From positions 62,001-126,000 of the forward strand of contig CM065323.1 of the NCBI GenBank assembly GCA_033032175.1: a stretch of 64,000 nucleotides of DNA. Direction: 5' to 3'. This document shows, piece by piece, positions 12,836 to 44,062 of the stretch; the stretch's first letter is position 1, and every line of letters begins with the position of its first letter. The position numbers were made by a program, and so were the translations under genes. The stretch comes from Saturnia japonica (lineage: Eukaryota; Arthropoda; Insecta; Lepidoptera; Saturniidae). The notes beneath the pieces were generated by a model. That model was not told where the DNA came from and searched no databases. It saw only the letters and a program-made list of their open reading frames with translations.

Positions 12836-12899
<64 letters not shown>

Positions 12900-12901
<2 letters not shown>

Positions 12902-16384: not shown

Positions 16385-16386
16385 TA

Positions 16387-19051: not shown

Positions 19052-19060
19052 AACCTAACC
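19052..19060 (+). repeat. Telomeric repeat tract between SL3 and GO1
   Basis: AACCTAACC separates the SL3 5' end from the poly(T) of GO1 (19061-19086). Confidence 0.9.
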
Positions 19061-19086
19061 TTTTTTTTTTTTTTTTTTTTTTTTTT

Positions 19087-19395
19087 AACGTGGAGAAACC
19101 CGTCATGGGTACACACCCGCCCGGGGGGACGAGTGGTTATGTGAGACTCCTACTCACTAAAACTCCACGGTGTACCATCGGCCGCCATAGTGGGACGCGC
19201 GGGCACTGCGGATGCAATCTGCCGCGACGCCCCGGCGGCCGGCCCCAGTCGGGCCCCGGCGCTAAAGAGAGACAGTCTGGTACAACCCCAACTGTCTCCC
19301 AGACGGCTGAGCCAGTGCAATGGGAAGACGGGCCCCCCGACCCGTCTCCCCTTGGTTCAGCAATGGTGACGGAAGGAGGCGAAAAACACTCCCTC
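19087..19395 (-). promoter_or_regulatory. GO1 3' UTR
   Basis: Homologous along its length to the 3' UTRs at 37182-37491 (GO2) and 35960-36237 (SL7). Outer arms CGTGGAG (19089-19095) and CTCCACG (19163-19169); hairpin GTGAG (19141-19145) and CTCAC (19153-19157) around ACTCCTA. Sharing the 3' UTR with an ORF2-bearing subfamily suggests it can recruit that enzyme in trans. Confidence 0.75.
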
Positions 19396-21549
19396 CTAAC
19401 ACCCAACGTCTACGCTATCCTCTGAGCTTGGTAGAGGTAGTTGCGGCGCCATTCCCTTAGTGGGCGGCGGCTTACAGGCAGCTCCAGTCATCTGGTGATT
19501 CGCCGGCCTCCCGGCGTCGGCACACAAGGCACAGTGGAACTTTTTTGCTGCACACTCCAGCGCCTTGTGGCCAGGCTGCCCGCACCGGAAACACAGGGCT
19601 CCGCGGTCTATCGTCGACGGGCAGAGTGGACGAGTGTGGCCCACACCCATGCACTTGTAACAGCGCATGGGCCCACTCTCCAAGAGGCGCACACGTGCCG
19701 CACTCCATCCGACAAGGAGACGACCCGCCTCCACTAGAACCCTGGCAGCGGAAGCCGGGAGCGAAAGATAAACCGCTCCCATACCCCTGCTATAGGCACG
19801 TATGGGGCCAGCCCTAATAAGGGCCTGCTGACAGCCAGCTTTCGCAGCCGCAGCCGCCACGACCTCCTCGACCGATACTGATTCATCCAGTCCGATCACA
19901 CGGACGCTTGCCTTTTTAATGGCCTTGGCGATAGTGGCCTCGCCCGCCAACACCGTCTGCAGGATCTCAACCATCCGGTCCGCCTGCTCTGAACCACGGG
20001 AGCCACGGATCTCGACAATCCGGGATCCCGTGGCTGTGGGCCGCGCCGAGATGTCCTCGATCCCGAGGTCCGCTAGCGCGACTTGTTTCTGCGCGTTTAA
20101 AAAGGCATCCTTATAACTCATTCCCCCCGCCAAAGCCTCTGGCTGCAGCGTAATAATCACTGCAGCTGAGCGCGGTGACGAGGGTAGCTTCGCCTTAAGC
20201 TTGCTGGCACGCGCTCTCCCAACAGGAGCGGGAGCCAGTGTCGCAGCAGCCTTCGGTTCACTAACTGGCTTTTTCTTCCTCCGTCGCCGACGAGACACGG
20301 TGGTCCATCCTTCGGCGGTTGCGGCTGGAGCAGGAACATCAGCCCCTGTCATAACATGCTCAACCCCCAGGGAGTCTTCTTCCAAATTCCTCTCCGCCTC
20401 AGAAGGCGCTGGACCAGCCACTCTGGATTTAATTCCCGAAGTTTTAGCCCTGGAAGGCTTAGGTCTTGTGGGACCCGGGGCAGTCTGTCTGTCCGCAGCC
20501 AGAGGAGGGCGGACCACCTTGGCGGGGAGGAGACGGTCATCCAAGGCCTCTATGCGGGCAGTAACTAACTCCCCCATAGACACCCGGAGCGACCGCTCCA
20601 TCCTCGACATGTGTTCCGCCATCGCATCAAACACAGCCTGCATCAGGGAATCCTGTCCCTGACCTACTGGCATCTTTTGCGTCAAAGGCAGCGCAGGCGA
20701 AGCCCCCACCCGACCGCGCAACGAGGAGAGCTCCTCCTTGAGGGCATCGACCTCCCGACGAAGCCTCCCCGTCTCGCGTCGCAGAAGGAGGGTCTCCTCC
20801 GTCACCGTACGCGTTAGAGCGGTGGCAGTGACCTCATGGAGGGTCCACGCTGCCTCCTTCAGGTTTTTAACAAACGTGCCCTTGAGGTTGCCAGATTTCT
20901 TGGCAATCTCAAGGACCGCGTCTACTTTCTCCTTTGCGAGGGCCCTCAAACTGTCGGGATCGAGGAGCTCGATGCCCTCGAGTACTCCCACTTCAGCAAA
21001 GGCACCAGCCGCATCAACAACGGCAGCCGCAGCCGCGTCCGTAATACAACCAGCCTCATCAGAGCTTGTCAACCCAGGAAGGGGACAATCCTGCGGCAAC
21101 GCACAAGTAACTTCCGCGCGCGTTCTTCCTACAGATGAGCCCAGATCACGGGCTTTGCCCCTCCGAGCTGACGTAAACTTGTTGGGAGGAGTCTCCTCCC
21201 CATCCTCATCAGCTTTAGCAAGCAATCGCTTCCTATCGGCAGCTGCCACTGGCCCTAACCTACAAGATCCATCATCCCAGTGCCTGATTGAAAACCTCTC
21301 AAGCATAGGGTCACGCTCAAGCATCACGACAGGCGAAAGATTCCTTTGTTGTAAAGCCGTGGTCGTCATTGTATTGGTGGAATCGGTTTTCCTTAAACTA
21401 GCATTGGTCTTCGTTTGTTTCTTACAATCACGCAAAATTTTGCCCCCCCCCCCAGAGAACGTGGGGCAGCCCGAGCTAAACTCGGGGAGGGATTCTCCAG
21501 CAGGGCTGGTACCCTCCTGGGGTAATACTTTTTTCAATTGTGCGTCCAT
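19396..21549 (-). CDS. GO1 ORF1 (gag-like, three CCHC)
   Basis: An open frame of 717 codons. ATG 21549 lies at the break with BEL sequence, so the ATG at 21369 (657 codons, MTTTALQQ) is a plausible native start. Features: basic N-terminus, NLKGTFVKNLKEAA, a coiled coil (LLLRRETGRLRREVDALKEE), PPLAADRQTA, a Lys/Arg-rich stretch, SAAVIITLQPEA, GLDESVSVEEV, and three zinc knuckles (CYKCMGVGHTRPLC, CFRCGQPGHKALEC, then one ending in H-x4-C). It lacks RGRP. It ends in SVDVGC and TAG and is followed directly by the 3' UTR. The intact frame in an element without RT suggests the protein itself is what has been maintained. Confidence 0.85.
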   Translation of the reverse strand: MDAQLKKVLPQEGTSPAGESLPEFSSGCPTFSGGGGKILRDCKKQTKTNASLRKTDSTNTMTTTALQQRNLSPVVMLERDPMLERFSIRHWDDGSCRLGPVAAADRKRLLAKADEDGEETPPNKFTSARRGKARDLGSSVGRTRAEVTCALPQDCPLPGLTSSDEAGCITDAAAAAVVDAAGAFAEVGVLEGIELLDPDSLRALAKEKVDAVLEIAKKSGNLKGTFVKNLKEAAWTLHEVTATALTRTVTEETLLLRRETGRLRREVDALKEELSSLRGRVGASPALPLTQKMPVGQGQDSLMQAVFDAMAEHMSRMERSLRVSMGELVTARIEALDDRLLPAKVVRPPLAADRQTAPGPTRPKPSRAKTSGIKSRVAGPAPSEAERNLEEDSLGVEHVMTGADVPAPAATAEGWTTVSRRRRRKKKPVSEPKAAATLAPAPVGRARASKLKAKLPSSPRSAAVIITLQPEALAGGMSYKDAFLNAQKQVALADLGIEDISARPTATGSRIVEIRGSRGSEQADRMVEILQTVLAGEATIAKAIKKASVRVIGLDESVSVEEVVAAAAAKAGCQQALIRAGPIRAYSRGMGAVYLSLPASAARVLVEAGRLLVGWSAARVRLLESGPMRCYKCMGVGHTRPLCPSTIDRGALCFRCGQPGHKALECAAKKFHCALCADAGRPANHQMTGAACKPPPTKGMAPQLPLPSSEDSVDVGC

Positions 21550-21552
21550 CTT

Positions 21553-22362
21553 AAATCGATGAGTAGGCGAGCGATTTTATGTTTCCCGTCTAGGACCGCC
21601 AAGTTTCCGCTACTCATGTTCATTTTCCGTGTTCTGTCTCGCAACCGAATGATGCCGTGTTCATCGAGTTGGACGTCTATTTTCTTCAGTTTGCTACCTG
21701 TCTTGATGGGTAAGTTTTTCCGTAAACATTCCATCTCGTCCCCGAATGCATCCAGTTGACTGTGGTGTAGTAGGGCTAGTTCGGCCCGCTGTAAACAACG
21801 ATCGGGTATTGGTATAAACTTCGTTGTATTTTCTTGAGTCTTTTTTGTTCGGACGGTTTTCTTGGTTTCTTTTTTCTTATGTGGCTTCCACTCGCTATCG
21901 CGCGCGACGTTCACGACGCGACCTTTCTTACACAGTTCTGTAAATTGGAATATTCTCGCCACGGTTCGCAGTAGTTTTATCCAACTTGAAAATCGTTCCG
22001 GACTCGGTAGTGTGTCGTCGTTTCTTGTGCGCGTGGTAAGTACAGTCGCAGATTTCCTTTCTTCATCCGATACTTGGTCGCACTTTCCCAAGCGTTTCTG
22101 CGGCCAATCCGCTTCTGGCCGATGAAGAAAATCTGGACCGACGAACCATTTTGAGTCTTCACTGAACCCATTTGGTACTCCCCGGGTGGCTATGTCCACC
22201 GGGTTTTCGCGTGTCGGCACCCACCTCCACTCGTGTGACTTCGAAATCTCTTCGATGGCTGCCAACCTGTGAGCCACGAACGGTTTGAAGCGGCGCGGAT
22301 CGGCTTTCATCCACTGCAGTACTGTGCTCGAGTCTGACCAGTAGAATTTGTCCGTGGTTTTT
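21553..22362 (-). pseudogene. BEL/Pao pol scrap (RNase H to integrase N-terminus)
   Basis: The - strand translation carries FYWSDSSTVLQWMKAD, FVAHRLAAIEEIS, NPVDIATRG, WFVGPDFLHRPEADWP, then a region ending GKHKIARLLID, where an integrase zinc domain should begin. These are hallmarks of the BEL/Pao RNase H to integrase segment. The frame is cut at both ends: at 21552 by GO1 and at about 22362 by unrelated AT-rich DNA. No LTR or target duplication is visible, so it looks like captured DNA, not an insertion. Confidence 0.75.
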
Positions 22363-22517
22363 AGTTTGACTTGACTTATATATTGTTCTTACATACCTAC
22401 ACGCTATAGTAACATATTCAAAACATTAGAAACATTTAATTATTGATCGTTTGTGCAAATTATTCATCCTTACAACTTATATTTACAAATGTTATTCTTA
22501 TATCATTACGCTTAGGC
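22363..22517. other. AT-rich filler, nothing recognised
   Basis: About 155 AT-rich bases lie between the BEL/Pao scrap and the broken 3' end of SL4 ORF1. I see no ORF, repeat or structure. Confidence 0.5.
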
Positions 22518-23497
22518 TTATGCGTCGCTAACAGCCCGTGCTGCCAGAGACTTTCTCCTCTTTCTCTTGTTTCTCCTGGCAGGAGAAACAGAGCCTTCAA
22601 CGTTGGAAGTATGTACAATAGGTTCCACGAGCGAAGATTGGCCTACCTGATCAGCAACCACTGATGAGCCTATTATCCTCCTCTTCAGAGTTTCAAAGTA
22701 AGCCTTCGTTTGGCCTCCTATTTCAGATTTTATACTGTCCAACGCCTCATTAAGAGTGCTTTTTGTCACTACATCAGGTAGGGTGTAGCTCGTTGCAGGT
22801 AGAGGAGCAACCCCCTCAATGCGCCTATCCCTACAAAGACCTTCCCACAGCTCGACCAATTCTTTACGAAGTAGGTCTATCTCCGTCCCCTGCTTTACCT
22901 CGTTTTCCTTCAGCCTGTCATATGACTCCTGGAGTCGTATTACCTCTTCCGATGACGATCTGTTGGCCAACACGAAAGCCTTATCCGCAATAGAGGAGGC
23001 TGCTTCTTTGAGGGCACGCTGGAACGTGCCTTTCAAATTCTTCGATTTTTCCGCGACTTTCAGAACAACATCAACCTCGTCAAGAATACTCTTCTTAATA
23101 TCCGCCACAAGCAGCTCATCCGTCTTTGGAGGGTAATTCCTCATCGCAGCACGATCTACTCTAACACGCGATGCTATATCCGCCACCTCTTCCTCCGCCC
23201 TAAGACGAAGTTCCTCCTCCCTGAGTCGGTTAAGGTCCATCTTGGCTTTTGCCAGGCCTTTATAATACCCCGTTGTTGGCGGGCGACCCCTACCTTTCTT
23301 GGAAACAGGGGTACGCGTAGAATACTGACCACCATCTTGAAGTTCCGAATCCGAAGATGAAGATGAGTCTGTAGCCAAACATATTCTGCCCTTATGACCG
23401 CGAATGGCCGCAACAGGAATATCACTGCCCTCACTGGCAGTAGCCATACCAAATGCGTTACAGTCTGAAAGCACCAAATCGCTCTCCAGGCCCACAG

Positions 23498-23645
23498 TGT
23501 TGTGAGTAGGTAACATCACTAGTCGATGAGAAGGCGGTCTGTCAATGTCACTAAGTTGGAAGAAAGATTCTGTTTTTGTCAATGTGGCGTCGGGCGTTTA
23601 TTTATTTAAACATTCATAAAATACAGTAATAAACAGACCAAAACA
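23498..23645 (+). repeat. 5' LTR of the Ty3/gypsy element
   Basis: 148 bp, TGTTGTGAGTAGG... to ...CCAAAACA, matching the 3' LTR base for base in my reading. It is short for the family. Confidence 0.93.
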
Positions 23646-23721
23646 TGGTGTCAGAATTGGGTTCGTACCGTAAACGTAAACCTTGAGTCATTGTGAAATC
23701 CTCGTGTGCAAATACGGCGTC

Positions 23722-25002
23722 ATGTCTGACGAAAATCAAAAGCCCAAGAAACTTTCTGGAATGTCCAGTCCGCAGCCCATGGTGATAAGTGGTAACTTGG
23801 CTCAACAATGGAAAAAATGGGTACAGTCATTTAAATTTTATTTACGTGCGTCTGGCTTGGATGAAGAGAGTAATGGCAGAAAAGTAGCTTTATTTCTACA
23901 TGCCATTGGTGAAAAGGGCGTGGATGTATTCAATACATTTGGAAAAGACGACGATAAAATTACATACGACGAGCTTATAAGGTTATTTCAAGATCACTTT
24001 GCCCCAAAAACTAACCTCACTTATGAATGTCATAATTTCTTCACATACAAACAAGGTGAAAATGAAACCTTAGACGATTTTGCTTGCACATTAAAATTAA
24101 GGTCACAAAACTGTGAGCTAGGACAGCTGCAACAACGCCTAATCAAAATAATGTTTATATGTAACATGCATCAAAAATACAACTATATCAGAGAAAAATT
24201 ATTGCTTGAAGATAAGCTGGATCTTGATAAGGCCTTAGAGATGGCAAAGGCCATGGTTACGTCCAGACATCAAATGGATGAACTGACAGCAGAACAAAGT
24301 ACAGTCTTGTATAATACAAGTCAGTCACGCTCAAGATTAAGGTCTAACTCAACGAACGTCAGTCGATATAGTCAGCAGTCAAGACAGGAAGTTTGTACAA
24401 GGTGTGGACAGGTGCATCGTTACAAATGTCCAGCATTAGGTGTAAAGTGCAAAAAATGTGAAAAAGTTGGTCATTTTGCAGTCTGTTGTCGGTCATCTCT
24501 GTCAAAGTCAATAAGATATGTACAGTCAGATAGTAATATGCAACAGGTACAGTCAGAACAAGATGAATTGTTTATAGGTCATATTCAGTCATCCAAGTCG
24601 TCAAGTGAATGGACAATTAATTTATATATAAATAATTCACAAATAAATTGTATTATTGATACAGGCAGTGATGTCAATATTATGTCAAAAAGTCTTTATG
24701 ATTCACTTAATACTAAAAATTTACTGTCTAAAACTGATGTAAAAATTAAGTCATACACTAGTAATAGTCTAGAGGTACTAGGTCAACAAAGCTTAGAGTG
24801 TAAATTTCAATTTAATGACCTCTATATGACAAAACAAATTAATTTTATAATTGCAAATGTGAATTCTCCAACTGTATTAGGTAAACTTACTTGCTCAGAA
24901 ATTAGTCTAGTTAAAAGAGTTTTCTGTGTAGACACTAGAAGCATGCAAACTTCAGAAAGTGATAATAGTCAATTGTTTTCTGAAACAAGTCAAAATGAGT
25001 GA
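23722..25002 (+). CDS. Ty3/gypsy Gag with protease at the C-terminus
   Basis: About 426 codons from ATG 23722; the frame is open upstream to a TTG but has no earlier ATG. The helical capsid-like region includes WKKWVQSFKFYLRASG and LDDFACTLKLRSQNCELG. A nucleocapsid has CTRCGQVHRYKC and the knuckle CKKCEKVGHFAVCC near residues 243-256. The aspartic protease signature CIIDTGSDVNIMS is near residue 313. Having protease upstream of the stop is unusual, because it normally sits in the pol frame. The ORF ends at TGA 25000-25002, and the pol ORF continues in the same frame. Confidence 0.88.
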   Translation: MSDENQKPKKLSGMSSPQPMVISGNLAQQWKKWVQSFKFYLRASGLDEESNGRKVALFLHAIGEKGVDVFNTFGKDDDKITYDELIRLFQDHFAPKTNLTYECHNFFTYKQGENETLDDFACTLKLRSQNCELGQLQQRLIKIMFICNMHQKYNYIREKLLLEDKLDLDKALEMAKAMVTSRHQMDELTAEQSTVLYNTSQSRSRLRSNSTNVSRYSQQSRQEVCTRCGQVHRYKCPALGVKCKKCEKVGHFAVCCRSSLSKSIRYVQSDSNMQQVQSEQDELFIGHIQSSKSSSEWTINLYINNSQINCIIDTGSDVNIMSKSLYDSLNTKNLLSKTDVKIKSYTSNSLEVLGQQSLECKFQFNDLYMTKQINFIIANVNSPTVLGKLTCSEISLVKRVFCVDTRSMQTSESDNSQLFSETSQNE

Positions 25003-27774
25003 AATTCAAGTCAAGCACAGTCATCTCCATTAAAGTCAAGTCAGTCACAAAATATGAATTTAAATAAACTTGTTGAATGTAATAATTCTGTTTTTACCGG
25101 TCTTGGTTGTCTTCCTGGTGAGTGTCATATAAGTACAAATCCTGAGGTCCAGCCAAAAGTCGATGCTCTGAGGAAGGTACCATTTGCATTACATCATAGA
25201 CTTCAACAAGAACTTGAGAAGATGGAAAAAATGGATGTCATTACCAAGGTCACAGAGCCTACTGAATGGGTGAGTTCTTTAATCTTAATAGAAAAGAAAA
25301 ATGGTCAATTAAGGGTATGTCTAGACCCCCGTAATTTAAATCAGGCGATTAAGAGGACTCATTATCCTATTCCATCAGTAGATATTGTCCGTGCCAAGGT
25401 GGCTGGTGCAAAATTTTACTCCACTTTGGATGCAAGTAGTGGATTTTGGATGTGTAAATTGAGTGAGAAGAGTTCTTACCTCACAACTTTTAATACACCT
25501 TTTGGCCGATACAGATTTAAACGTCTTCCATATGGAGTCAGTTGTGCTCCTGAGTATTTTCACAGAATTATGACTGAAATGTTTGGTGACATACCAGGGG
25601 TAGCAGTATACAGCGATGATATTTTAGTCAGTGGTCAAACACTACCAGAGCATAATGAGCGTCTTAATATAGTATTTAAAAGAGCAAAGGAATATAATGT
25701 CAAGTTTAATAAAGAAAAATGTTCATTCAACAAGGAGAGTATTAAATATCTGGGTCACATTTTTTCAGCGGATGGAATCACAGCTGATCCAGAAAAAGTC
25801 AGAGCAGTCAAAGAGATGCCCTCTCCTACCTGTCTAAAGGATTTACAAAGATTTCTAGGCATACTTAATTATTTAAGTCCTTTTATTAAAAATATGGCAG
25901 GCGAGACAGAAATTTTACGGCAATTATTAAAAAAATCTACTGATTGGCAGTGGACTGCCAACCATGAAACAACATTTTGCCATCTGAAGCAATTAATATG
26001 TCAAGTTCCAGTGTTGTCACATTTTAATGTTCATGATCCTATTGTTCTACAAAGTGATGCTAGTAAGAGTGCTGTCGGAGCGGTGTTGTTGCAAAATCAA
26101 CATCCAGTATATTATGCTTCAAAAACTTTAACAGATACACAGCAGAAAATGGCTCAGATAGAGAAAGAACTCTATTCAATAGTTTTTGCCTGCATCAAGT
26201 TTCATCAATTTATATATGGACAAACTGTAACTGTAGAGACAGACCATGCTCCTTTAATAACATTGTTTAAAAAGCCATTATTCGAGGTCCCAACACGTCT
26301 TCAGAGAATGATGTTAAAAATACAGCTTTATAGTCTAAATGTAGTTTACAAGAAAGGTAGTCACATGTACATTGCAGATACCTTGTCGAGAGCAGCTCTC
26401 TCGGAAACAAGTTCAGATGAATTAGATGATAATGTCATTGTTCATGTAAATTTACTGATTAAGTCATTACCAGTTTCATCAGAACGTCTACAGTGGCTAA
26501 TCAGAGGCACTAATGAAGATAGAAGTCTGGGGATTTTGAAAACATACTGTAAAGAAGGATGGCCGTCAAGTAAAACTCAAATTCACAAAGATCTGCAAGA
26601 GTATTGGCAGTATAGATTTGATTTACATACAGAACATGATTTAATTTTCAGAAGTAACAGTATAGTCATACATAAAAAGTTAAGGCCAGACATTTTGAAA
26701 ATAATACACAGTGGACATCTGGGAATTGAGAGGTCAAAAGCGTTTGCTAGAGGACATGTATTTTGGCCATTTATGTCAACTGATATAAAAAACATTGTCC
26801 AGTCGTGTCATATTTGCTTGTCACATAGAAGCTCAAATGCTCCTGAACCACTTCTTCCACATGATGTTACATTACTTCCGTGGGAAAAAGTTGGTGTTGA
26901 TTTCATGGATTATAAATCTAAAAAATACATAGTAGTACAAGATTATTACTCAAATTATATTGAATTAATGGCAGTGGCAAGTACTAACGCCAAAACAGTA
27001 ATTGTTTGTCTTAAAAGTATCTTTAGCAGACATGGTATTCCAGTTGAGTTATTCTCTGACAATGGGCCACCATTTAATTCGGCAGAGTTTAAGAATTTTA
27101 TGTGGGACTGGGGAATACATCATAATACGTCAAGTCCCTACATACCAAGGTCAAATGGGTTGGTAGAGTCCGCAGTAAAGATATGTAAACGTTTCCTTAC
27201 CAAGTCAGAGGAGTCAGGGACAGATCCATATCTGGCTTTGCTTCAATTCAGGAATACACCTAGAGGAAATCTACCATCTCCAGCACAATTATTAATGTCA
27301 CGTTCACTTAGAACACAATTACCAACAGTCACAAAAAACTTAATACCAAGAACAGTCAAATTTCAAGAATATGTCAAAATTAAGGAAGAAAGTAAAAATA
27401 AAATGAAGGATTACTATGACAGAAAGACTAAATCATTACCAGAACTACAAGAAGGAGATGAAGTCTATTTTAAGAAGATGCCAGATACTCCATGGATTAC
27501 AGGCACAGTAAGGTCCAAATGTGATCAGCCTAGGTCTTATATCGTTGAAGGGTCAGATGGATTTATAGGAAGGAGAAACACACAGCATATTTTGAAGCCT
27601 ATGCAATCACCGCAAATGGTATCTCAAGATATTAGGTTACAAAAAAGTTCAAATATCAAGACATCTCCTAATCCTCATACAGTAGCACCGTCTATTGAAG
27701 AGCATAGAACTCCAGTTGAAAAGCGTACTAGGTCTGGGAGAGTCATAAGACCACCAAGACGGTTAGATTTATAA
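25003..27774 (+). CDS. Ty3/gypsy Pol: RT, RNase H, integrase
   Basis: The first ATG is at 25054 (906 codons), but the frame is open back to the Gag TGA. Read-through of that TGA would therefore make one Gag-Pol. RT: WVSSLILIEKKNGQLRVCLDPRNLN, FSTLDAS-type box (FYSTLDASSGFW), LPYGVSCAPEYF, and the catalytic YSDD at 25609. RNase H: LQSDASKSAVGAVLLQ, YASKTL, ELYSIVFA and TDHAPL. Integrase: a zinc H-H-C-C region (HSGHLGIERS to CHICLSH) and catalytic Asp in GVDFMDY, Asp in FSDNGPPF, and Glu in GLVESAVK. It ends with a basic tail. No lesion is visible and no envelope ORF follows. Confidence 0.92.
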   Translation, partial: NSSQAQSSPLKSSQSQNMNLNKLVECNNSVFTGLGCLPGECHISTNPEVQPKVDALRKVPFALHHRLQQELEKMEKMDVITKVTEPTEWVSSLILIEKKNGQLRVCLDPRNLNQAIKRTHYPIPSVDIVRAKVAGAKFYSTLDASSGFWMCKLSEKSSYLTTFNTPFGRYRFKRLPYGVSCAPEYFHRIMTEMFGDIPGVAVYSDDILVSGQTLPEHNERLNIVFKRAKEYNVKFNKEKCSFNKESIKYLGHIFSADGITADPEKVRAVKEMPSPTCLKDLQRFLGILNYLSPFIKNMAGETEILRQLLKKSTDWQWTANHETTFCHLKQLICQVPVLSHFNVHDPIVLQSDASKSAVGAVLLQNQHPVYYASKTLTDTQQKMAQIEKELYSIVFACIKFHQFIYGQTVTVETDHAPLITLFKKPLFEVPTRLQRMMLKIQLYSLNVVYKKGSHMYIADTLSRAALSETSSDELDDNVIVHVNLLIKSLPVSSERLQWLIRGTNEDRSLGILKTYCKEGWPSSKTQIHKDLQEYWQYRFDLHTEHDLIFRSNSIVIHKKLRPDILKIIHSGHLGIERSKAFARGHVFWPFMSTDIKNIVQSCHICLSHRSSNAPEPLLPHDVTLLPWEKVGVDFMDYKSKKYIVVQDYYSNYIELMAVASTNAKTVIVCLKSIFSRHGIPVELFSDNGPPFNSAEFKNFMWDWGIHHNTSSPYIPRSNGLVESAVKICKRFLTKSEESGTDPYLALLQFRNTPRGNLPSPAQLLMSRSLRTQLPTVTKNLIPRTVKFQEYVKIKEESKNKMKDYYDRKTKSLPELQEGDEVYFKKMPDTPWITGTVRSKCDQPRSYIVEGSDGFIGRRNTQHILKPMQSPQMVSQDIRLQKSSNIKTSPNPHTVAPSIEEHRTPVEKRTRSGRVIRPPRRLDL

Positions 27775-28013
27775 GAATTAATATTTGGTTAACTAAGTAA
27801 ACATTGTAGCAATGACTGTGAAGGACTGATTGATTTCGTTAAGTCTAGAATATATATAGATTATAGATAGAGATTAAGTTCAACAAACTGTCTTATTTTG
27901 AGTTACTTAAATAGTCTTTGTAATTAAGGGTTATTGTTAAGAGTTTAGTCAATTTTTGTAAACTGTCTCAAGTTGTAAAATTATATTAAATTAACTTTTT
28001 CTAATAAGGAGGA

Positions 28014-28161
28014 TGTTGTGAGTAGGTAACATCACTAGTCGATGAGAAGGCGGTCTGTCAATGTCACTAAGTTGGAAGAAAGATTCTGTTTTTGTCAATG
28101 TGGCGTCGGGCGTTTATTTATTTAAACATTCATAAAATACAGTAATAAACAGACCAAAACA
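28014..28161 (+). repeat. 3' LTR of the Ty3/gypsy element
   Basis: 148 bp, preceded by the purine tract and followed by the CACAG target duplication. Confidence 0.93.
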
Positions 28162-28252
28162 CACAGTTGTAGTGGCACCACCCTCAGTTCCAAGGACATT
28201 TTCCTCCTCAATTAATTTAACTTTTTTAGATTTTGTTTTTGTTTTTGAACTC

Positions 28253-28680
28253 TTCATTTCTGATCCCACGAGAAAGGGGGAAGTAAAACGTCCACCCAGG
28301 CAGTGCCCCCTGTGCCTGGGTAAGCCTAACGTAACCCGTCAGAGAGTTGGCCGGTTCTCTGACGGGGGGTCGCACTCGTGACTGGTCTCCCACCAGCCAC
28401 GCATCCCCTCGTGGTGCGCCGCCACTTGGGATTAGAGTAATTTTTTATAGAGGTTTTCTTCCTCGCGGTCCGGGCGGTGAAGCCAAGACCCTCGGTCCCA
28501 TTCGAAGCCGCGAGACGTGACCACGACACTCCGAAATGGGATTACGAGATCGACGACGACAAGCTGGACAAGGTGCCAAACCTGCCCGCCCGACGGCAGT
28601 GTGAGTGCACGCCGAGCCCGCCAACACACCACGTTCTTCGATCCCTCTGACTAACAGAGCGACGGTAAACGTAGCCCCCC
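28253..28680 (-). promoter_or_regulatory. SL4 5' UTR
   Basis: Homologous to the SL3 and SL5 leaders, including the CCACCCAGGCAGTGCCCCCTG block (+ strand reading). It links the ribozyme to ORF1. Confidence 0.6.
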
Positions 28681-28758
28681 GTCAGGTATTAGCCGTCGGC
28701 CGTGAAGCGACCGCCGTTGCCCAGGATGCACCACGCGGAGGTTCCTGACTCGCACCCC
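28681..28758 (-). ncRNA. HDV-like ribozyme at the SL4 5' end
   Basis: Same architecture as SL3: GGGGUGC at 28758-28752, GUCAGG/CCUGAC P2, loop UCCGCGU, GGGCAAC, and CUAAUA. The last base of the 3' strand of P1 is U, leaving a G-U pair at the cleavage-site end. P4 has a G-U wobble replacing a G-C. It is flanked upstream by telomere repeats. Confidence 0.75.
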
Positions 28759-28782
28759 AACCTAACCTAACCTAACCTAACC
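28759..28782 (+). repeat. Telomeric repeat tract, about five units
   Basis: The longest clean CCTAA tract in the window, between the SL4 5' end and the SL5 poly(T) (28783-28794). Confidence 0.93.
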
Positions 28783-28794
28783 TTTTTTTTTTTT

Positions 28795-32100: not shown

Positions 32101-32279
32101 CCTGCCGAGACAACGGCCACTGTACCCATCAAATCCCCCACCCAGCTATCCCTAGGAGGGATGGAGTAAGGTTCAGCGACTACCGCTACGTGAACCGACC
32201 ACTCAGACAAAGTTTGGACCAGGAGATCCTGTGCCACAGCCGAATGATTTATATTAGCTTGGAGAAAGTTATAAGCCAT
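29122..32279 (-). pseudogene. SL5 ORF2: endonuclease and RT, one stop and one frameshift
   Basis: Endonuclease: LQANINHSAVAQDLLVQT, AEPYSIP, VAGDFNAKSAAWG, LSDHLYIRFDL. RT: NTAPGPDGIPGR, SYRPIVLLDEGGKLFERV, QYGFRVGRSTIDAI, VSLDIANAFNSLPW, GVPQGSVLGPLLWNIGYDW, CYADDTLV. C-terminal zinc motif CHHCDICEVDTAQHTLEEC. At 30921-30923 a TGA stands where SL3 has Trp (TGG) in the same frame. Near 29750-29772, after AACLLA, a single base is missing compared with relatives, shifting the frame before GELPPWELVA. Either could be repaired by one base, so inactivation is recent. TAG stands right before ATG 32279. Confidence 0.88.
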
Positions 32280-32289
32280 CTAATTTAAT

Positions 32290-34446
32290 TTAATTATTGT
32301 CCACCGCCCGAGACGTCAACGGCGCGTCATTGCTCGCCGATGGCATCAGGGTCTGTGTGGGACTCTTGCCCCTCTTTCGCAACTTCTTTGCAGCTCCCTT
32401 ATTCGACAAAGGCGCAGATCCTGTACAAGACCTGCCTCCTATTAGGTGGCCCGCTGGTCTGCCTGCAGCTGCACACATCACACAATGCGGTTCGGCACTA
32501 CACCCACTGACCTTATGACCTGATTGGCCACATCTAAAACACAACTGACTACAGTCAACCCCAGAAGTGCACTTTGCTCCGATATGGCCTTCCTGGAAAC
32601 ATCTATAACACCTTTGAGGCCGTATCGGCAGGACCTTTACCTGTGCCGAAACCCACCCAATTAATAATCGCCGCCCGTCACTTAACTTCTTTGCAGCCGC
32701 CACAGGACAAGAAACTACAGACGCCCAAAGTCCTTTCCAACCTGGAGGGATACCGCTTGTTCGCACCTGATCATGAGAGCATCCAGTAGCTTCAGCCACA
32801 GCGGTAACTACTTCTTTTTCAGTGACAGATTCATCCAGGCCTGAAATACTCACTTCGGCGCATCTCAAGGGCCTGGAGACTCTCACACCTTCTTCAGGTA
32901 CAGCAGCCTTGATTTTAGCTACCAATTCGTCCGCTTTTGCACCACTGGCAGCACCGGGTATCTCTAAAAGATACCCGCCAGTAACCGTCTTTTTCCATCG
33001 AATCCCTGTAATACCGATGTCGGCCACCTTTACGTCCCTCTTAATTTTCTGCAGAACTTCCAAATAGGATAATCCCTTCTCCTGCGCCCCAGCCTGTAGT
33101 GTGACTGCTACAGCGGCTGTTTTAGGAGGCCGTAGGTTCGGAACACTCCCTTTCCTGTTAGCTGACTTCTTTTTATTCTTGGCCTGCCTCTTTGGCCTGC
33201 CGTTTTTCCCCACCAGAACCCATTCCCCTTCCTTAGGTTTAGACACTGGTGGTTGTTCCGTACCGATAAATACAGTCTTGGTAGCTGCCTGATTGACTGA
33301 AGTCTTCTTTATACTCTGCTGATTCCCTCTAATCTTCTGGAGTTCAGATGGCGCTTCGGGCGCAGCCTTCACTGTAGTCACTGACTGGGTACTTTCTCGA
33401 TGCGTACTGGAGGGAGACCATTCTTCCTGCAGTAGTCTCTGCTCAATAGCCTCAAGCCGAGAAAACATACTTTCCATTCGACTCATCACCCTTTCAAGCT
33501 TTTCACTTTCTCTCTCCCCGTTTTGAGTGTCTTTCAATTTCTGTGAAATCGTAGAAAGGTCTTCTTGCACCGTTCTCTTTAATGGGGGAAAGGCATCTCC
33601 CTCACAAACAATGGTGGGAAAATGAGCAACACTACTCACAGGCTCTGGGTGACGAGTCTTTTCCACCTCCGCCCTAAGCTCCACCATCTCCTTGCGTAGT
33701 TCCGCCAGCTCAGCCGCCTGCTTAGCCTCTTTTGCCTCTAACTCAGCGTACGCTGCCTGGAGCCTCCTCACCTCATCAGAGACAGTGCGAGATTGTAACT
33801 CGTCAACTGCATTCACTATAGACGAGGCCGCATCATTAAGAGCACGCTGGAAAGTGCCCTTAAGATTTTTAGACTTCTTGGCAACTTTACGAATAACCTC
33901 AACGTCCTCAATAACCCTTTCGTTCAGATCAGCAGCTGTTTGCTCCTCAGAACCTGGTGACCGTGCTTTTGCAGCGGCTCTTTCATGCCTTGCTCTCGAA
34001 GCTACCAACGCAACCACTCTTTCATCCCTGAGGCGAAGTTCCTCCTCCTCCAAGCGAATAAACTCTGCCTTAGCTTTCGCCAAATCCCTGTAGTGTCCCG
34101 TTGTTGGAGGGCGACCCCTGCCTTTTTTCTTGGGTACGGGGGTACACAACCCTGTCATGCTAGTTTCAGGATCGCTCCCTGAAGATGAGTCCGTACGGAG
34201 ACGTAAGCGCTCTCGTTCTTTAACTCTACGAACATCAGCTAGGGGAACATCACTCCCCTCGCTGGCCGTCACCATTGTAGCTCTGCTTATATCCGTGGCG
34301 TCCGAAAGACACTCTAGCAACACATTGCACTCCGGGCCCACAGCAGGGATATCGGTTGAAGCGGCACCATCCTCAATACTCAAGCTATCTTCTTTATCAT
34401 TCACTTTCATTTTAATTGATTTTGTTTTTGATTTTGAATTCTTCAT
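32290..34446 (-). CDS. SL5 ORF1 (gag-like; RGRP motif, coiled coil, three CCHC)
   Basis: 718 codons from ATG 34446 (MKNSKSKTK); upstream extension is possible only with non-ATG codons. Same order as SL3: acidic N-terminus, KKKGRGRPPTTGHYRDLAKA, NLKGTFQRALNDAA, coiled coil (RLQAAYAELEAKEAKQAAEL), GEWVLVGKNGRPKRQ, TAAVAVTLQAGAQ, VSISGLDESVTEKEV, then knuckles CYRCFQEGHIGAKC, CFRCGQSGHKVSGC and a third ending H-x4-C. No lesions, so this ORF1 outlived its own ORF2. The stop is 10 bases before the ORF2 ATG, without the TAATG overlap of SL2 and SL3. Confidence 0.88.
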   Translation of the reverse strand: MKNSKSKTKSIKMKVNDKEDSLSIEDGAASTDIPAVGPECNVLLECLSDATDISRATMVTASEGSDVPLADVRRVKERERLRLRTDSSSGSDPETSMTGLCTPVPKKKGRGRPPTTGHYRDLAKAKAEFIRLEEEELRLRDERVVALVASRARHERAAAKARSPGSEEQTAADLNERVIEDVEVIRKVAKKSKNLKGTFQRALNDAASSIVNAVDELQSRTVSDEVRRLQAAYAELEAKEAKQAAELAELRKEMVELRAEVEKTRHPEPVSSVAHFPTIVCEGDAFPPLKRTVQEDLSTISQKLKDTQNGERESEKLERVMSRMESMFSRLEAIEQRLLQEEWSPSSTHRESTQSVTTVKAAPEAPSELQKIRGNQQSIKKTSVNQAATKTVFIGTEQPPVSKPKEGEWVLVGKNGRPKRQAKNKKKSANRKGSVPNLRPPKTAAVAVTLQAGAQEKGLSYLEVLQKIKRDVKVADIGITGIRWKKTVTGGYLLEIPGAASGAKADELVAKIKAAVPEEGVRVSRPLRCAEVSISGLDESVTEKEVVTAVAEATGCSHDQVRTSGIPPGWKGLWASVVSCPVAAAKKLSDGRRLLIGWVSAQVKVLPIRPQRCYRCFQEGHIGAKCTSGVDCSQLCFRCGQSGHKVSGCSAEPHCVMCAAAGRPAGHLIGGRSCTGSAPLSNKGAAKKLRKRGKSPTQTLMPSASNDAPLTSRAVDNN

Positions 34447-34867
34447 TTCTAATCCCACGAGTGTGGGGGAAATAACGGTCCACCCAGGCAGTGCCCCCTG
34501 TACCTGAGTAAGCCTAGCGTAACCCGTCAAGAGAGTCGGCCGGTTCTCTGACGGGGGTCGCACTCGTGACTGGGCTCCCCCCAGCCACGCATCCCCTCGC
34601 GGTGCGCCGCCGCTTGGGATTGAGGTAATTTTTTATAGAGGTTGTCTTCCTCGATGTTCGGGCGGTGAAGCCAAGACCCTCGGTCCCATATGAAGCCGCG
34701 AGACGTGACCACGACACTCTGATGGGATTACGAGATCGACGGTGACAAGCCAAACAAGTTGTCCAGTCTGTCCGCCCGACGGCAGTGTGAGTGCACGCCG
34801 AGCCCGCCAACATACCACGTTCTTCGATCTCTCTGACTAACAGAGGGACGGTAAACGTAGCCCCCCC
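34447..34867 (-). promoter_or_regulatory. SL5 5' UTR
   Basis: Conserved leader between ribozyme and ORF1, closely matching SL3 over its length, with the same CCCGTCA...TGACGGG inverted repeat. Confidence 0.55.
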
Positions 34868-34945
34868 GTCAGGTATTAGTTGTCGGCCGTGAAGCGGTCG
34901 CCGTTGCCCGGGATGCACCACGCGGAGGTTCCTGACTCGCACCCC
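34868..34945 (-). ncRNA. HDV-like ribozyme at the SL5 5' end
   Basis: GGGGUGC P1 (34945-34939) with GCAUCCC; GUCAGG/CCUGAC P2 (3' strand 34873-34868); L3 UCCGCGU; GGGCAAC; CUAAUA. P4 carries one mismatch (A-C) compared with SL3. AACCTAACC is directly upstream. Confidence 0.75.
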
Positions 34946-34954
34946 AACCTAACC
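34946..34954 (+). repeat. Telomeric repeat tract between SL5 and SL6
   Basis: AACCTAACC followed by the SL6 poly(T) at 34955-34977. Confidence 0.9.
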
Positions 34955-35931
34955 TTTTTTTTTTTTTTTTTTTTTTTACGTGGGGAAATCCTACATGGAT
35001 CCGCCTCTCGAGCCGGGCAGCTCGAGAGGGGTATGTCAGTATGTCAGATTCTTACTGACTAAAACCCCACGGTGTTCTCCACACACCTATGTGGCCGGGG
35101 AGCAGGAACTGCTGTAGCAAAACTTCTACTCAACCCGGCAGGTGTCAGCCCCTCCTGAGAGGCCTCTTCTTGCGGTCTGAGGGGTCGGATGAATGGACAC
35201 CCTCTGACGAACCGTCGAGGGGCGCATCGAACACAGATGCGCCTCACCTCGGGCCTTTGCATTAACTGCAAGGGCGAAGGACGTGCCCGTGTCCAACGGC
35301 CGCAGGCCTTATTTACGGCGGCTGTAGGTCATCCCTGACCCGTCGCCGCTGAACGGTTCGTCGACCACGGGAGGGAAGCTGTGATGCCAGCTCCCTCTTC
35401 CTCTCCGCCGCCTCCTTCGCGAGCATAACTTCCTCGCAGTATGAGGCGACGGAGTTCCACCAGGTCTCGCTCTCGGCCATGGACTTCACAACGGTCGAGA
35501 GCGAGAGATCTGGGCCAATAACCGCGACGAGCTCGCGGTGTGGCATTTCCCAGGCGGGACAATCTACGAGGGTGTGCTGTGCGGTGTCCGTCGCACAGCC
35601 ACAATGGTGGCACCCTGCTGTCGGTTCCCGGCCTATACGACACAGGTAGCTCCCGAAACAGCCGTGTCCCGAGAGCACCTGTGTCAGCCGGAATGTCAGG
35701 GTGCCGTGCCGCCTGGTTGGCCATTCGGCCAATACGGGCCGAACGGCTTCCACTGTTGCCACGCCCGAGCTCGGTCGCTCAAGACGTCGGCGCCACTCGT
35801 CCACCACTAGGACCTGGTGGAGCTGTGACCTCAGCGCCTCGATTTCCCGAGGTGCGAGTCGTATACCTTGCTCCAGCACCTCCACGCGTCGAAGATACAG
35901 AGACGCGTGGGCTCTCGCCTCCAGGACCCCA
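34955..35931 (-). mobile_element. SL6: 5'-truncated SART-like element (SL3 subfamily)
   Basis: Poly(A), a 3' UTR nearly matching that of SL3 (arms CGTGGGG 34979-34985 and CCCCACG 35065-35071; hairpin GTCAG/CTGAC at 35043-35059 around ATTCTTA) and the C-terminal end of ORF2. TATGTCAG is duplicated at 35032-35047. Only AACC remains of the telomere repeat at the truncated end. Confidence 0.8.
35313..35931 (-). pseudogene. SL6 ORF2 C-terminal fragment
   Basis: Open from the truncation to the stop. It carries the post-RT region of ORF2 (EVLEQGIRLAPREIEALRS, HGTLTFRLTQVLSGHGCFGSY) and the zinc motif CHHCGCATDTAQHTLVDC, closely matching SL3. RT and endonuclease are absent, as expected of incomplete reverse transcription. 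Confidence 0.8.
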
Positions 35932-35959
35932 ACCTTTTGTTTTTTTTTTTTTTTTTTTT

Positions 35960-36237
35960 AACGTGGAGAAACCCATCATGGGTACACACCCGCCCGGGGG
36001 GACGAGTGGTTATGTGAGACTCCTACTCACTAAAACTCCACGGTGTACCATCCGCCGCCATAGTAGGGCGACGCGGGCACTGCGCTGGCATACAGCCGCG
36101 CCGCCCTGGCGGCCGGCCCGGCTTAACCGGGCCCCGGCCTAAATAAGAGACGGCTCAGTACATCCTAGCCGTCTCCTCTGTCCGCCGAGCCTGTGCAATG
36201 AGAAGACGGGCCCCCCGACCCGTCTCCTTTGGCTCGG
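35960..36237 (-). promoter_or_regulatory. SL7 3' UTR
   Basis: Arms CGTGGAG (35962-35968) and CTCCACG (36036-36042); hairpin GTGAG (36014-36018), ACTCCTA, CTCAC (36026-36030). Homology to GO1 and GO2 extends back to the ORF2 stop codon. Confidence 0.75.
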
Positions 36238-37151
36238 CTAGGATGGCGGGAGTTGGCGAATGAACCGCCTCCTCCTGCCACCCGTTCTTCTTTGTCGGAG
36301 AGGGCCGCTCAGGGGATCCCCCTCGCGTGCCCTCTCCGCAACCTCCTTCTGCGAGATGACTTCCTCGCAGAAGGAGGCCATCGCCTTCCATGCATTCTCG
36401 CTGCCGAGCATGGCTCTCACCACACTCGGCAGCGAGAGGTCTCCTCCAACATCTACGGCCAGAGTGCGGCGCTGCCCCACCCACGCAGCACACTCAGACA
36501 AAGTGTGCTGCGCCGTCTCCTCTGCAGCCCCGCACTCGTGGCACGTAGTGTTGGGCTCCCTCCGTGCTATCTTGTGCAGGTACCATCCGAAACAACCATG
36601 TCCGGATAGCACCTGCACAAGTCTAAACGTCAGAGAGCCCCGCTCCCTGGCGCACCACTCCCGGAGGACCGGGCGGACGGCGTCTATGGTATAACGCCCA
36701 TAGCGCGCGTCCGCCAGGTCCTCCTCCCATCTCCTAGTGACCTCCTCCCGGGCCTCCCGCCGGACCCTGTCTACCTCTGTGGGAGCTGGAGGCTCCCCTA
36801 ACTCTCTCCTCGCCGCCGTGAACCTGTACACGGCGGCGAGCACCTCCGCCTCCAACTCCCACGGCGGGGAGCCAGCAAGAACCATGGCCGCCCCCGCGGA
36901 CACCGACCGGTACCCGCGGATTACTCTCAGCGCCACGACGCGCTGCGTAGCACGCAGTACGCGCCTGTTCGTGGGGCTGAGGGCATCCGACCAGATCGGT
37001 GCCCCGTAGACGGCCATGCTCCGGATAACTCCAGAAAACAAGCGGCGACAGCTCGCGCCCGGCCCCCCCGAATTCGGAAGAAGCCGGCCGAGAGCCGCCG
37101 CCGCTCCCACTATCCGCGGTTCGAGTCCCTTAAAGTGGGACTCGAACCGCC
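36238..37151 (-). pseudogene. SL7 ORF2 C-terminal fragment
   Basis: Open frame from truncation to stop: HFKGLEPRIVGAAAALGRLL, SMAVYGAPIWSDAL, GYRSVSAGAAMVLAG, GSLTFRLVQVLSGHGCFGWY, then the zinc motif CHECGAAEETAQHTLSEC. It belongs to a different subfamily from SL3 and SL6 but is clearly orthologous in layout. It matters because it shows what ORF2 once sat, or sits elsewhere, with the GO-type 3' UTR. Confidence 0.8.
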
Positions 37152-37181
37152 AAACCTTTTTTTTTTTTTTTTTTTTTTTTT

Positions 37182-37491
37182 ACGTGGAGAAACCCGTCAT
37201 GGGTACACACCCGCCCGGGGGGACGAGTGGTTATGTGAGACTCCTACTCACTAAAACTCCACGGTGTACCATCCGCCGCCATAGTGGGACGCCGCGGGCA
37301 ATGCGGTTGCAATCTGCCGCGACGCCCCGACGGCTGGCCCCAATCGGGCCCCAGCGCTAAAGAGAGACAGTCTGGTACAACCCCAACTGTCCCCCAGACG
37401 GCTGAACCAGTGCAATGGAAAGACGGGCCCCCCGACCCGTCTCCCCTTGGTCCAGCAAGGGCAGAGGAGAGAGGCGGTTAAGCGCCCCCAC
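37182..37491 (-). promoter_or_regulatory. GO2 3' UTR
   Basis: Arms CGTGGAG (37183-37189) and CTCCACG (37257-37263); hairpin GTGAG (37235-37239), ACTCCTA, CTCAC (37247-37251). Nearly identical to GO1 and SL7 in the terminal 100 bases. Confidence 0.75.
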
Positions 37492-38661
37492 CTACTGCCC
37501 GTCGTCTACGCAAATGTCCAGCGGCGGTATCGGCGCTGGCTGAACACTCCCTTTTACAGGAGGTGGCTGGCAGCTGGCACCCCCCATGTAGTGGCCTGCT
37601 GGCCTTCCGTTATCGGCACAGTAAGCGCAATGAAGCGCCTCAGCCTTACACTCTTGCGCCCTATGCCCCGGCTTCCCACACCGGAAACACAGTCCCCCCC
37701 TGTCGACCGTCGATGGGCACAATGGCCGCGTGTGACCCAGGCCCAAACACCTAAAGCACCTTAAAGGCCTTTGCTCTAGGAGATGGACTCGGGCCGAACT
37801 CCATCCTACTAGGAGTCGTCCCCCCTCAACCAGCACTTTCGCCGCGGTGACAGGGAGGGACACATGCACTCTACCCAAGGTCCTCCCCATGCTCTGAATT
37901 TCACCCACCCTAATTTGTTCTGCCGTGCACCCCCCCTTACATGCGACAGCAGCGACCACCTCTTCCTGCGATACAGAATCGTCCAGGCCAACGATGCGGA
38001 CGTTCACCCGTTTTATCGGCCTGCTTATTGTGGCAACGCCTGCTAATGCCATCTGAAGGCACTCTGCCAGCTTGTCTGCCTGTTGCGCGCCTTGGGGTCC
38101 AGGAATCTCGACGACCCTTGTCCCCGTAGCGGTCTCCCGGACCGACAAATCCTCAATGCCCAGACTGGGCAAGTCAGCCGCCAATCTTGCCCTCAGAAAG
38201 GCATCCTTGTAGCTCACCCCCTGAGCCACTGCCTCAGGCTGCAGCGTTATAAGCACTGCAGCTGAGCGTGGGGGCAAGGGGAGCTTAGGTTTGGGCTTTT
38301 GCCCAGGTGTACCCTTCCGAGGAGCGAGAGCAACCGGTGCAGCCACCACTGGAACCGAGTTTGTCGCCGCCTTTTTATTCCTTTTGCGACGGGCCACAAC
38401 CCTGGTCCACGCCGCATCGGAATCCGTCGATGCCGGAAGCCACGCCCAGTCCATCCCTAGGACAGGCACTTGGGAGGACGTTGCCGGCCCAGTAGCTGAA
38501 GCGCGAGGCTGAGGCCCCGCACGTAGACCAGGCTTTGAACCAAGAGTCTTTTGTCCCGCAGTGTTAGATGCCGTCTGCCTCTTATCTGCCGCTAGAGGGA
38601 GCCGATTTACCGGAACCATGCGATCCTCCAGCACCACCAGGCGGGCGCTCATATCTTCCAT
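37492..38661 (-). CDS. GO2 ORF1 (gag-like, N-terminally short, three CCHC)
   Basis: The frame is open from beyond 38799 to 37492, but the first ATG is at 38661 (390 codons). Translation may start there or at a near-cognate codon. Compared with GO1 and SL2 it lacks the N-terminal half (NLKGT motif and main coiled coil). It begins just before the short helix SARLVVLEDRMVPVNRLPLAADKRQ. The rest is complete: a basic tract, SAAVLITLQPEAVAQGVSY, VRIVGLDDSVSQEEV, LLVGWSSARVHLL, and knuckles CFRCLGLGHTRPLC, CFRCGKPGHRAQEC and a third. The C-terminus aligns with GO1 to the last residues. Long uninterrupted coding despite clear divergence from GO1 argues for past selection on the RNA-binding half. Confidence 0.75.
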   Translation of the reverse strand: MEDMSARLVVLEDRMVPVNRLPLAADKRQTASNTAGQKTLGSKPGLRAGPQPRASATGPATSSQVPVLGMDWAWLPASTDSDAAWTRVVARRKRNKKAATNSVPVVAAPVALAPRKGTPGQKPKPKLPLPPRSAAVLITLQPEAVAQGVSYKDAFLRARLAADLPSLGIEDLSVRETATGTRVVEIPGPQGAQQADKLAECLQMALAGVATISRPIKRVNVRIVGLDDSVSQEEVVAAVACKGGCTAEQIRVGEIQSMGRTLGRVHVSLPVTAAKVLVEGGRLLVGWSSARVHLLEQRPLRCFRCLGLGHTRPLCPSTVDRGGLCFRCGKPGHRAQECKAEALHCAYCADNGRPAGHYMGGASCQPPPVKGSVQPAPIPPLDICVDDGQ

Positions 38662-38744
38662 AGACCTCTTGAAGGAACGCTCAAGCCCCTGGATAGTATC
38701 TGCCAGGTTATTCGGCCCCTCAGGCCCCGACTGAAGTATGGCAG

Positions 38745-38963
38745 GTGGGTTTCCTTCCACTGTCTGTCCTTGATTTTTTATACTGGTGGTTTTCTCCACC
38801 TCCGTCCAGTAATTTTTTAAGGTGGTTGTCTTCCACCGTCCGTCGGTGATTTTTTAAAGGGTGGCTTACTCCACCACAGTCCGTCCAAGGTTTTTTAAGG
38901 TGGTTTACTCCACCGCCGTCAGCGATTTTTTAAAGAGGTTGTATCCTCCTCCGCCGTCAACGA
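38745..38963 (-). repeat. Tandem ~38-bp hairpin repeats in the GO2 leader
   Basis: About five and a half units of 35-41 bases, consensus on - strand GACGGACGGTGGAG then TAAACCACC then TTAAAAAAT. Each unit has a GGTGG/CCACC-type inverted repeat followed by an A-rich box (TTAAAAAAT or ATAAAAAAT). One unit has GAGG/CCTC in its place, a matched change. A tandem promoter or protein-binding array is possible. Function unknown. Confidence 0.75.
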
Positions 38964-39061
38964 CGAGTCCGTCCGTAGTGGACGAGCCGAAGCAGGTCCA
39001 CTCTTGCCCCATCCCCTGTCTCCTCTGGTGAGCAGAGGGGTACAGGGGAGGAACGCCGTCG

Positions 39062-39140
39062 GTCTGGTATTAGCCGTCGGCCGTGAAGCGGCCGCCGTTG
39101 CCCGGGGCACACCACGAGGAGGTTCCAGACATAGTGCCCC
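39062..39140 (-). ncRNA. HDV-like ribozyme at the GO2 5' end
   Basis: P1 GGGGCAC (39140-39134) with GUGCCCC (39110-39104); P2 GUCUGG (39130-39125) with CCAGAC (39067-39062); P3 ACC/GGU around UCCUCGU; GGGCAAC (39103-39097); P4; CUAAUA. Compared with SL3, two P1 pairs and one P2 pair have changed on both sides. That is the strongest internal evidence for the fold. L3 is even closer to the HDV loop than in SL3. Confidence 0.82.
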
Positions 39141-44057: not shown

Positions 44058-44062
44058 ATAAG

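Follow-up and report, generated by a model that had tools for sequence, protein, structure and literature searches.

The stretch of Saturnia japonica DNA considered here, 64,000 nucleotides of contig CM065323.1 (positions 62,001 to 126,000; G000:C20:62001-126000 in the searched genome of 580 Mb and 402 contigs; hereafter the window), is a telomeric retrotransposon array made up of SART-type elements, other elements without long terminal repeats (non-LTR) and LTR elements. The SART-type elements lie on the minus strand, with their poly(A) running into GGTTAGG; the labels SART and TRAS for elements of the window are ones that we take from structure and orientation, in part presumptively. Two of these elements, GO1 and GO2, had been predicted to carry open reading frame 1 (ORF1), which encodes a Gag-like protein, and no ORF2. 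GO is called SART-type on the grounds of its structure and target, the comparison having been with the window's own SART-like elements. Among these, "SL7" denotes the ORF2-bearing relatives whose 3' untranslated region (3'UTR) matches that of GO, namely a window fragment at 35940-37150 and copies elsewhere, and "SLA" the remaining SART-type elements of the window, such as that at 12873-19042.

GO1 occupies 19061..21552 on the minus strand, the strand of all features of GO1 and GO2 given here, and is 5'-truncated, its 5' end lying at most a few bases from the ATG. ORF1 (19396..21549) has 717 codons and three zinc knuckles near the C-terminus. At the joint between ORF1 and the 3'UTR (19396..19425) the end of ORF1 lies beside what remains of the lost ORF2, its last ~18 codons. 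The 3'UTR follows (19087..19395); its last 250 nt are 96% identical to GO2 and its fold has a z-score of -6.1. The last ~110 nt (19087..19196), referred to below as the tail, have a near-invariant branched fold that is also found in SL7, and form a putative recognition element for reverse transcriptase (RT). The poly(A) (19061..19086) appears as T26 on the plus strand, and telomeric AACCTAACC lies beyond it at 19052-19060.

GO2 (37157..39130) is likewise an ORF1-only element, but its interior is rearranged. It ends in a poly(A) at 37157..37181 preceded by a 3'UTR (37182..37491) and an ORF1 remnant (37492..38853), a 453-codon frame from which the N-terminal region is gone and in which three zinc knuckles are retained. 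Its ribozyme-like 5' end (39062..39130) shares 87-90% identity with those of two SART-type elements in the window. The first ~123 nt and the last ~1.17 kb match other GO copies; between them ~1.4 kb, comprising the leader and the N-terminus of ORF1, has been swapped for ~0.7 kb that scarcely matches other GO copies and includes 4.6 copies of a 39-bp tandem repeat (38785..38953). The original prediction had taken GO2 for a complete unit, which it is not. The ORF1 frames of GO1 and GO2 are about 50% identical, both contain zf-CCHC (Pfam), and no ORF2 matches lie within either element. The absence of ORF2 is real: in both, ORF1 leads straight into 3'UTR and poly(A).

The joint is the same in the two elements and aligns, as had been noticed, with the region of the SL7 ORF2 end. 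All 28 GO copies that were aligned have, at an identical alignment position after the end of ORF1, the final ~18 codons of SL7 ORF2 with the 3'UTR behind them, and their ORF1 stop codons scatter around this point by some tens of bases. When the genome was searched with a 171-nt joint query from GO1, the best 40 of 1627 loose candidates were scored, and every one of the 40, counting GO1 itself, extends across the joint with at least 91% identity. They lie on many contigs; an assembly artefact as the source of the joint, one way in which the prediction might have failed, was dropped on this ground.

The GO family in the genome

Further copies were sought with the 110-nt tail of GO1. Of 910 loose candidates, which are not the same as confirmed copies, 40 were scored; all were 100% identical to the GO1 tail, and the sample therefore leans towards GO. 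Up to 10 kb was examined around 21 of these tails (20 loci) and 451 nt upstream of 18 others, the fortieth being GO1. By hand count 36 of the 40 are GO-type 3' ends, GO1 included, and the other four are a chimera with a GO 3' part (L014), a tail behind a run of N (L018), a short fragment, one of the two copies in L026, and an unmatched tail (L070). Seventeen of the 18 tails outside the 20 loci stand behind a GO-type ORF1, and one is without any match. Within the loci, 59 tails were found by pattern: 40 after ORF1 without ORF2, 16 after ORF2, and three as fragments or at edges, in a count that enters the chimera of L014 and L015 twice, includes the L018 tail behind N, misses some tails and comes from loci picked for a GO-like tail.

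Complete ORF1-only units do exist, although neither GO1 nor GO2 is one. Twenty-seven units in the 20 loci and the window begin with a ribozyme-like 5' end and close with a GO 3' end; of these, 25 measure 2.69-2.86 kb, one 2.34 kb and GO2 1.97 kb. A typical unit consists of the ribozyme-like start, a leader of ~300 nt, a single ORF with three zinc knuckles, a 3'UTR of ~310 nt and poly(A), and an ORF2 match was found inside none of the 27. In 13 units an ORF1 frame of at least 664 codons is open to the joint, with an ATG at nt 201-321 in 12 of them, and the three zinc knuckles are retained in all 17 GO ORF1 rows. Units with open ORF1, ribozyme-like start, leader, 3'UTR, poly(A) and telomeric or duplicated-target flanks, the structure first proposed for GO2, are present elsewhere.

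Many GO copies lie in head-to-tail arrays with an identical spacer. At telomeric insertions the poly(A)-GGTTAGG junctions indicate that GO went into (TTAGG)n and that its poly(A) lies on the TTAGG strand. At other sites, copies with both a 5' end and poly(A) are flanked by target-site duplications of 10-14 bp: GGTTAGACTGATGA at L025, GGGTTCTTAGAACT at L027 and GGTAAGTCAT at L028, the last copy being without about its first ten bases. Ten further joint hits far from contig ends were then checked, and duplications were present at four (GGTGAAATAAGTAA, GGGCAGTCTAACT, GGTACTATCCGGAC and, with two mismatches, GGTTTAGTCACAAT). A fifth has GGTTAAGCTAA on both sides, yet it lies within a head-to-tail GO array and may owe this to array duplication. 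The remaining sites include one in telomeric repeats, two without a 5' terminus in the fetched stretch and two that have lost the 3' end. The duplications start with GG, as does GGTTAGGTTAGGTT between telomeric copies. Whole GO units spanning the joint have been copied into new sites by retrotransposition.

Selection and descent of ORF1

GO ORF1 is under purifying selection. The ratio of nonsynonymous to synonymous divergence (omega, or dN/dS), calculated from open frames only, has an NG86 median of 0.27 and a maximum of 0.385 over 71 GO pairs with dS of 0.15-1.5. The MG codon model, fitted to 12 sequences and 685 codons, gives an omega of 0.28, or 0.30 with a kappa term; the log-likelihood is -20996.9 as against -21710.8 at omega = 1, which is 714 log units worse. 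Coding has been kept, as predicted, and with an omega of 0.28 the view of GO as a simple pseudogene was dropped. It could still be supposed that GO is one dead deletion copy amplified at the DNA level only, by unequal exchange in telomeric arrays. Many head-to-tail arrays do have one spacer, and some units are near-identical between loci; this explanation is nevertheless very improbable, given isolated non-telomeric copies with target-site duplications and poly(A), and subfamilies that differ by a dS of 0.7 to saturated with omega near 0.28.

A tree of full ORF1 sequences places the 17 GO rows on one side of a branch with support 79/95, the five SL7 rows together at 98/96 and the four SLA rows at 100/100. 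The tree excludes the L020 chimera, the C-terminal row of L019, and L016 and L024, whose rows were wrong-frame outgroups; when the chimera is included, its GO-type ORF1 part is placed among the GO rows, as expected.

Autonomous relatives were sought with the N-terminus of SL7 ORF2, and 150 of 2735 loose candidates were scored. By hand count, 41 of the 150 have an open frame of at least 1047 codons without a stop. Upstream of 20 sampled hits, a few of them near-identical, ORF1 is closest to SL7 in every case (63-99% identity to SL7, 50-63% to GO). The upper 3'UTR, compared in 17 of these 20, is SL7-type in 16 (80-96% to SL7 vs 74-79% to GO) and unmatched in L104; a GO-type upper 3'UTR occurred in none of the 17. 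That close relatives of GO might all carry ORF2 at the joint was a stated alternative, and among the 20 sampled ORF2-bearing relatives none has a GO-type ORF1. On a 190-column tree, which leaves out L089 as too short and in which row L084 has a very long branch, 22 SL7 rows form a 100/100 clade set off from GO and SLA rows; GO splits up around the SLA root, and a single GO clade is not rejected (approximately unbiased test, p 0.29).

These data bear on a further explanation, that GO copies are formed repeatedly from ORF2-bearing parents by an identical event that takes out ORF2, either splicing or a preferred template jump, and that the constraint on ORF1 is that of the autonomous parents. The joint sits where a fixed mechanism might act, SL7 having AG right before the shared part, and support for GO monophyly is only moderate. 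Against recurrent loss stand the SL7-type ORF1 in all 20 sampled ORF2 copies and the missing GO-type upper 3'UTR in the 17 compared, and also the UTR block shared by GO copies, which is 94% identical among them vs 71% to SL7. The 5' ends argue in the same direction: over their first ~80 nt, GO units match one SLA element at 79-90% identity, but beyond this ribozyme part the GO leader is unmatched in five SLA/SL7 5' regions, except for one 24-nt hit in GO2. Rare GO-type parents could escape a sample of 20 among 150 scored hits from 2735 candidates, near-identical copies included. On balance recurrent loss is improbable.

The loss of ORF2 is near-total, leaving the last ~18 codons and the 3'UTR, and it is common to a diverse family with a selected ORF1. 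The common joint, the diversity of the family and the selection on ORF1 support the earlier proposal that the ORF2-less form is a lineage, not a one-off deletion. A single origin of GO rests mainly on the shared joint, since monophyly is only moderately supported.

The 3' tail and the probable source of reverse transcriptase

The tail is the part of GO most similar to SL7. Over the last 110 nt, GO copies are 99.0% identical to one another and 97.1% identical to four SL7 copies, the divergent L012 being left out; over the rest of the last 250 nt, upstream of the tail, the values are 93.8% and 70.9%. The branched fold before poly(A), with a covarying closing stem, is common to GO, SL7 and SLA tails in the window and L009-L028. 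In 59 tails the stem is CGTGGAG/CTCCACG in 46, CGTGGGG/CCCCACG in six, CATGGGG/CCCCATG in four, CGCGGAG/CTCCGCG in two and broken in one; only its free positions count as covariation, because the search pattern fixes part of it. The structured tail is the obvious candidate for what a shared RT would recognise.

Since RT has been lost while the gene for an RNA-binding protein is still selected, GO elements very probably borrow the enzyme of a related element. The helper is most likely the ORF2 of an autonomous relative of SL7 type. The window holds an SL7 fragment (35940..37150, minus strand) with the C-terminal part of ORF2, 3'UTR and poly(A) (35940-35959), and an open SL7 ORF2 of 1057 codons is present in L019.

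Alternatively, GO may be moved mainly by a non-SL7 ORF2, of SLA type or from another relative, SL7 sharing only the ancestry of the tail. The fold and closing stem are common to all SART-type tails here, and, as in L013, SLA elements with open ORF2 adjoin GO copies. Most SL7 tails, however, have the same closing stem as GO tails at 92-97% identity, as compared with about 72-75% for SLA tails; of 16 further SL7 tails compared with GO1, 13 fall at 92-96%. There are also two GO/SL7 chimeras in contiguous sequence (L020:1-4090 with L029; L014 and L015, which are one and the same copy), in which a GO 5' end is fused to SL7 ORF2 and UTR, and the reverse, at non-homologous junctions with a 1-3-nt overlap. 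Chimeras of this kind, in L014 and L020, are what RT template jumps by a single enzyme working on both RNAs would produce; deletion between neighbouring elements could also yield them, and their support for an SL7 helper is weak. All told, a non-SL7 helper seems rather unlikely. L018 had been considered as another chimera, an SLA element with a GO tail, and was dropped when a run of N was seen to separate its parts.

A proposed life cycle

From these comparisons of sequence we conclude, with a probability of roughly 85%, that GO is a long-lived ORF1-only (Gag-only) SART-type lineage which supplies Gag itself and, by way of its tail, uses the ORF2 of an SL7-type element. In the proposed cycle a ribozyme like that of hepatitis delta virus (HDV) would free the 5' end of the GO transcript. 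The ORF1 protein made from this transcript would coat GO RNA and carry it to the telomere. An SL7-type ORF2 protein would there recognise the shared ~110-nt structured tail and poly(A), nick (TTAGG)n and reverse-transcribe the GO RNA in trans.

Several observations weigh against this account. The ORF1 frame is broken or shorter in 14 of the 27 full units. Near-identical GO pairs have omega values of 0.2-0.85, so that selection is visible only at the level of the lineage, and GO monophyly, at 79/95 for full ORF1, is unrecovered on the 190-column tree. With regard to the helper, SLA tails fold like GO tails, and three of the 16 further SL7 tails are just 83-86% identical to GO1. As for the 5' end, the comparison with Rfam covered the window and L020-L022: the HDV-F-prausnitzii cut-off is reached, barely (44.4 bits vs 44), by five of the nine GO-type 5' ends in L020-L022, no 5' end in the window, GO2 included, attains it, and no match to the GO 5' end was found in four SL7-type 5' regions.

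The role of GO ORF1 could extend beyond GO. It might have become the principal Gag for the telomeric retrotransposons as a community, packaging and targeting SL7 RNA or ORF2 protein as well as GO RNA, a suggestion that we regard as doubtful. If true, telomere arrays would be upheld by a division of labour between Gag-only and RT-bearing elements, and the HeT-A/TART arrangement of Drosophila would have been reinvented independently in an animal that retains TTAGG repeats.

Other features of the window

A composite element, E1 (1020..4284, minus strand), consists of an SLA-like leader, an SL7-type ORF1 (1836-3986) and ~290 codons from the start of SL7 ORF2, beyond which SLA-type ORF1 sequence extends up to the window edge (window 1-4284); its reading as a plain SL7 element was dropped once this structure was found. 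On the plus strand at 4842-12817 are non-LTR elements of opposite, TRAS-like orientation with endonuclease, RT and RNase H matches, whose poly(A) abuts CCTAACC directly. An LTR retrotransposon with RT, RNase H and integrase domains (23498-28161) lies inside a SART-type ORF1 region; its two 148-bp end copies are 100% identical, and the insertion is therefore probably recent. A Pao/BEL-type element (Peptidase_A17, DUF1759, integrase) is found at 46488-51470 on the minus strand. Two repeats were also seen: an inverted pair of 473 bp with 98.9% identity and a 129-bp gap (59859-60331 and 60461-60932), and a direct repeat of 406 bp with 96.8% identity, ~17.5 kb apart (44060-44463 and 61602-62003).

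Comparison with known elements

HeT-A is the standard Gag-only telomeric long interspersed nuclear element (LINE), and is associated with loss of telomerase. A Gag-only telomeric lineage of independent origin, in an insect whose TTAGG repeats persist, would show that Gag and RT can be split without such loss. GO makes it possible to test why these elements retain Gag, and whether Gag or RT chooses the telomere. Recognition of RNA in trans by a LINE enzyme likewise becomes testable, because GO and its presumed helper resemble each other most in the ~110-nt structured tail. Among the papers listed in searches of the open-access literature (most subscription papers and Repbase lie outside this scope), none names a non-autonomous or ORF1-only SART-type element in its title or at the beginning of its abstract.

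SART1 of Bombyx mori has the target repeat and strand of GO, likewise with poly(A) on the TTAGG strand, and a 3'UTR usable in trans, as is proposed for GO: a reporter RNA with the SART1 3'UTR at its end is mobilised in trans by SART1Bm proteins and enters telomeric repeats (PMC7265360). GO has the CCHC zinc knuckles near the ORF1 C-terminus that are typical of SART elements (17 of 17 rows). Unlike SART1 it is without ORF2, the APE-type endonuclease and RT being present in none of the 27 units; the likeness is judged by structure and target, not by alignment. MoTeR2 of Magnaporthe oryzae is also an RT-less telomeric partner in head-to-tail arrays, with both termini as in the RT-bearing element, but there RT has been swapped for unrelated sequence without obvious function (PMC7367193), whereas GO retains a selected Gag gene. 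The Persaeus SIDE of Lepidoptera, found in moths and butterflies, is a LINE derivative with an internal deletion and a partner (CR1 Zenon); it differs in being CR1-derived, and its abstract makes no claim of retained coding (PMC6740152).

The parallel with HeT-A drawn in the original prediction stands for the Gag-only strategy and not for the mode of insertion. HeT-A, with TAHRE/TART, is a Gag-only non-LTR element in head-to-tail telomeric arrays, with RT presumed to come from relatives, and conservation of its gag has been interpreted as negative selection (PMC5537684). GO shares the Gag-only coding capacity under selection. HeT-A is added end-on with its poly(A) towards the centromere, whereas GO inserts within (TTAGG)n and elsewhere, with 10-14-bp duplications and poly(A) on the G-rich strand, and the TTAGG repeats persist. 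Since the sense strand of GO is the TTAGG strand, its poly(A) faces the chromosome end, opposite to HeT-A. The HeT-A 3'UTR is very long, that of GO about 0.3 kb, and GO ORF1 groups with SL7 and SLA ORF1 in the tree of GO, SL7 and SLA rows.

HAL1 (half-L1) of mammals, like GO, descends from a LINE, codes for ORF1 only and has a 3' end resembling that of its parent. HAL1 is not known to be targeted to telomeres, and several origins are reported for it. It is derived from L1, whereas GO ORF1 is homologous to ORF1 of the telomeric SART-like elements of the window. In the guinea pig the ORF1 coding of HAL1 has been retained for an estimated 29-44 Myr, which was read as cis-acting ORF1p with ORF2p supplied in trans (PMC3627910, PMC5753468). 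HAL1 and HeT-A have both been interpreted as combining Gag in cis with RT in trans (PMC3627910, PMC5753468, PMC5537684), and GO, by analogy, would fit the same logic. In structure HAL1 is at least as close to GO as HeT-A is, and GO belongs to neither.

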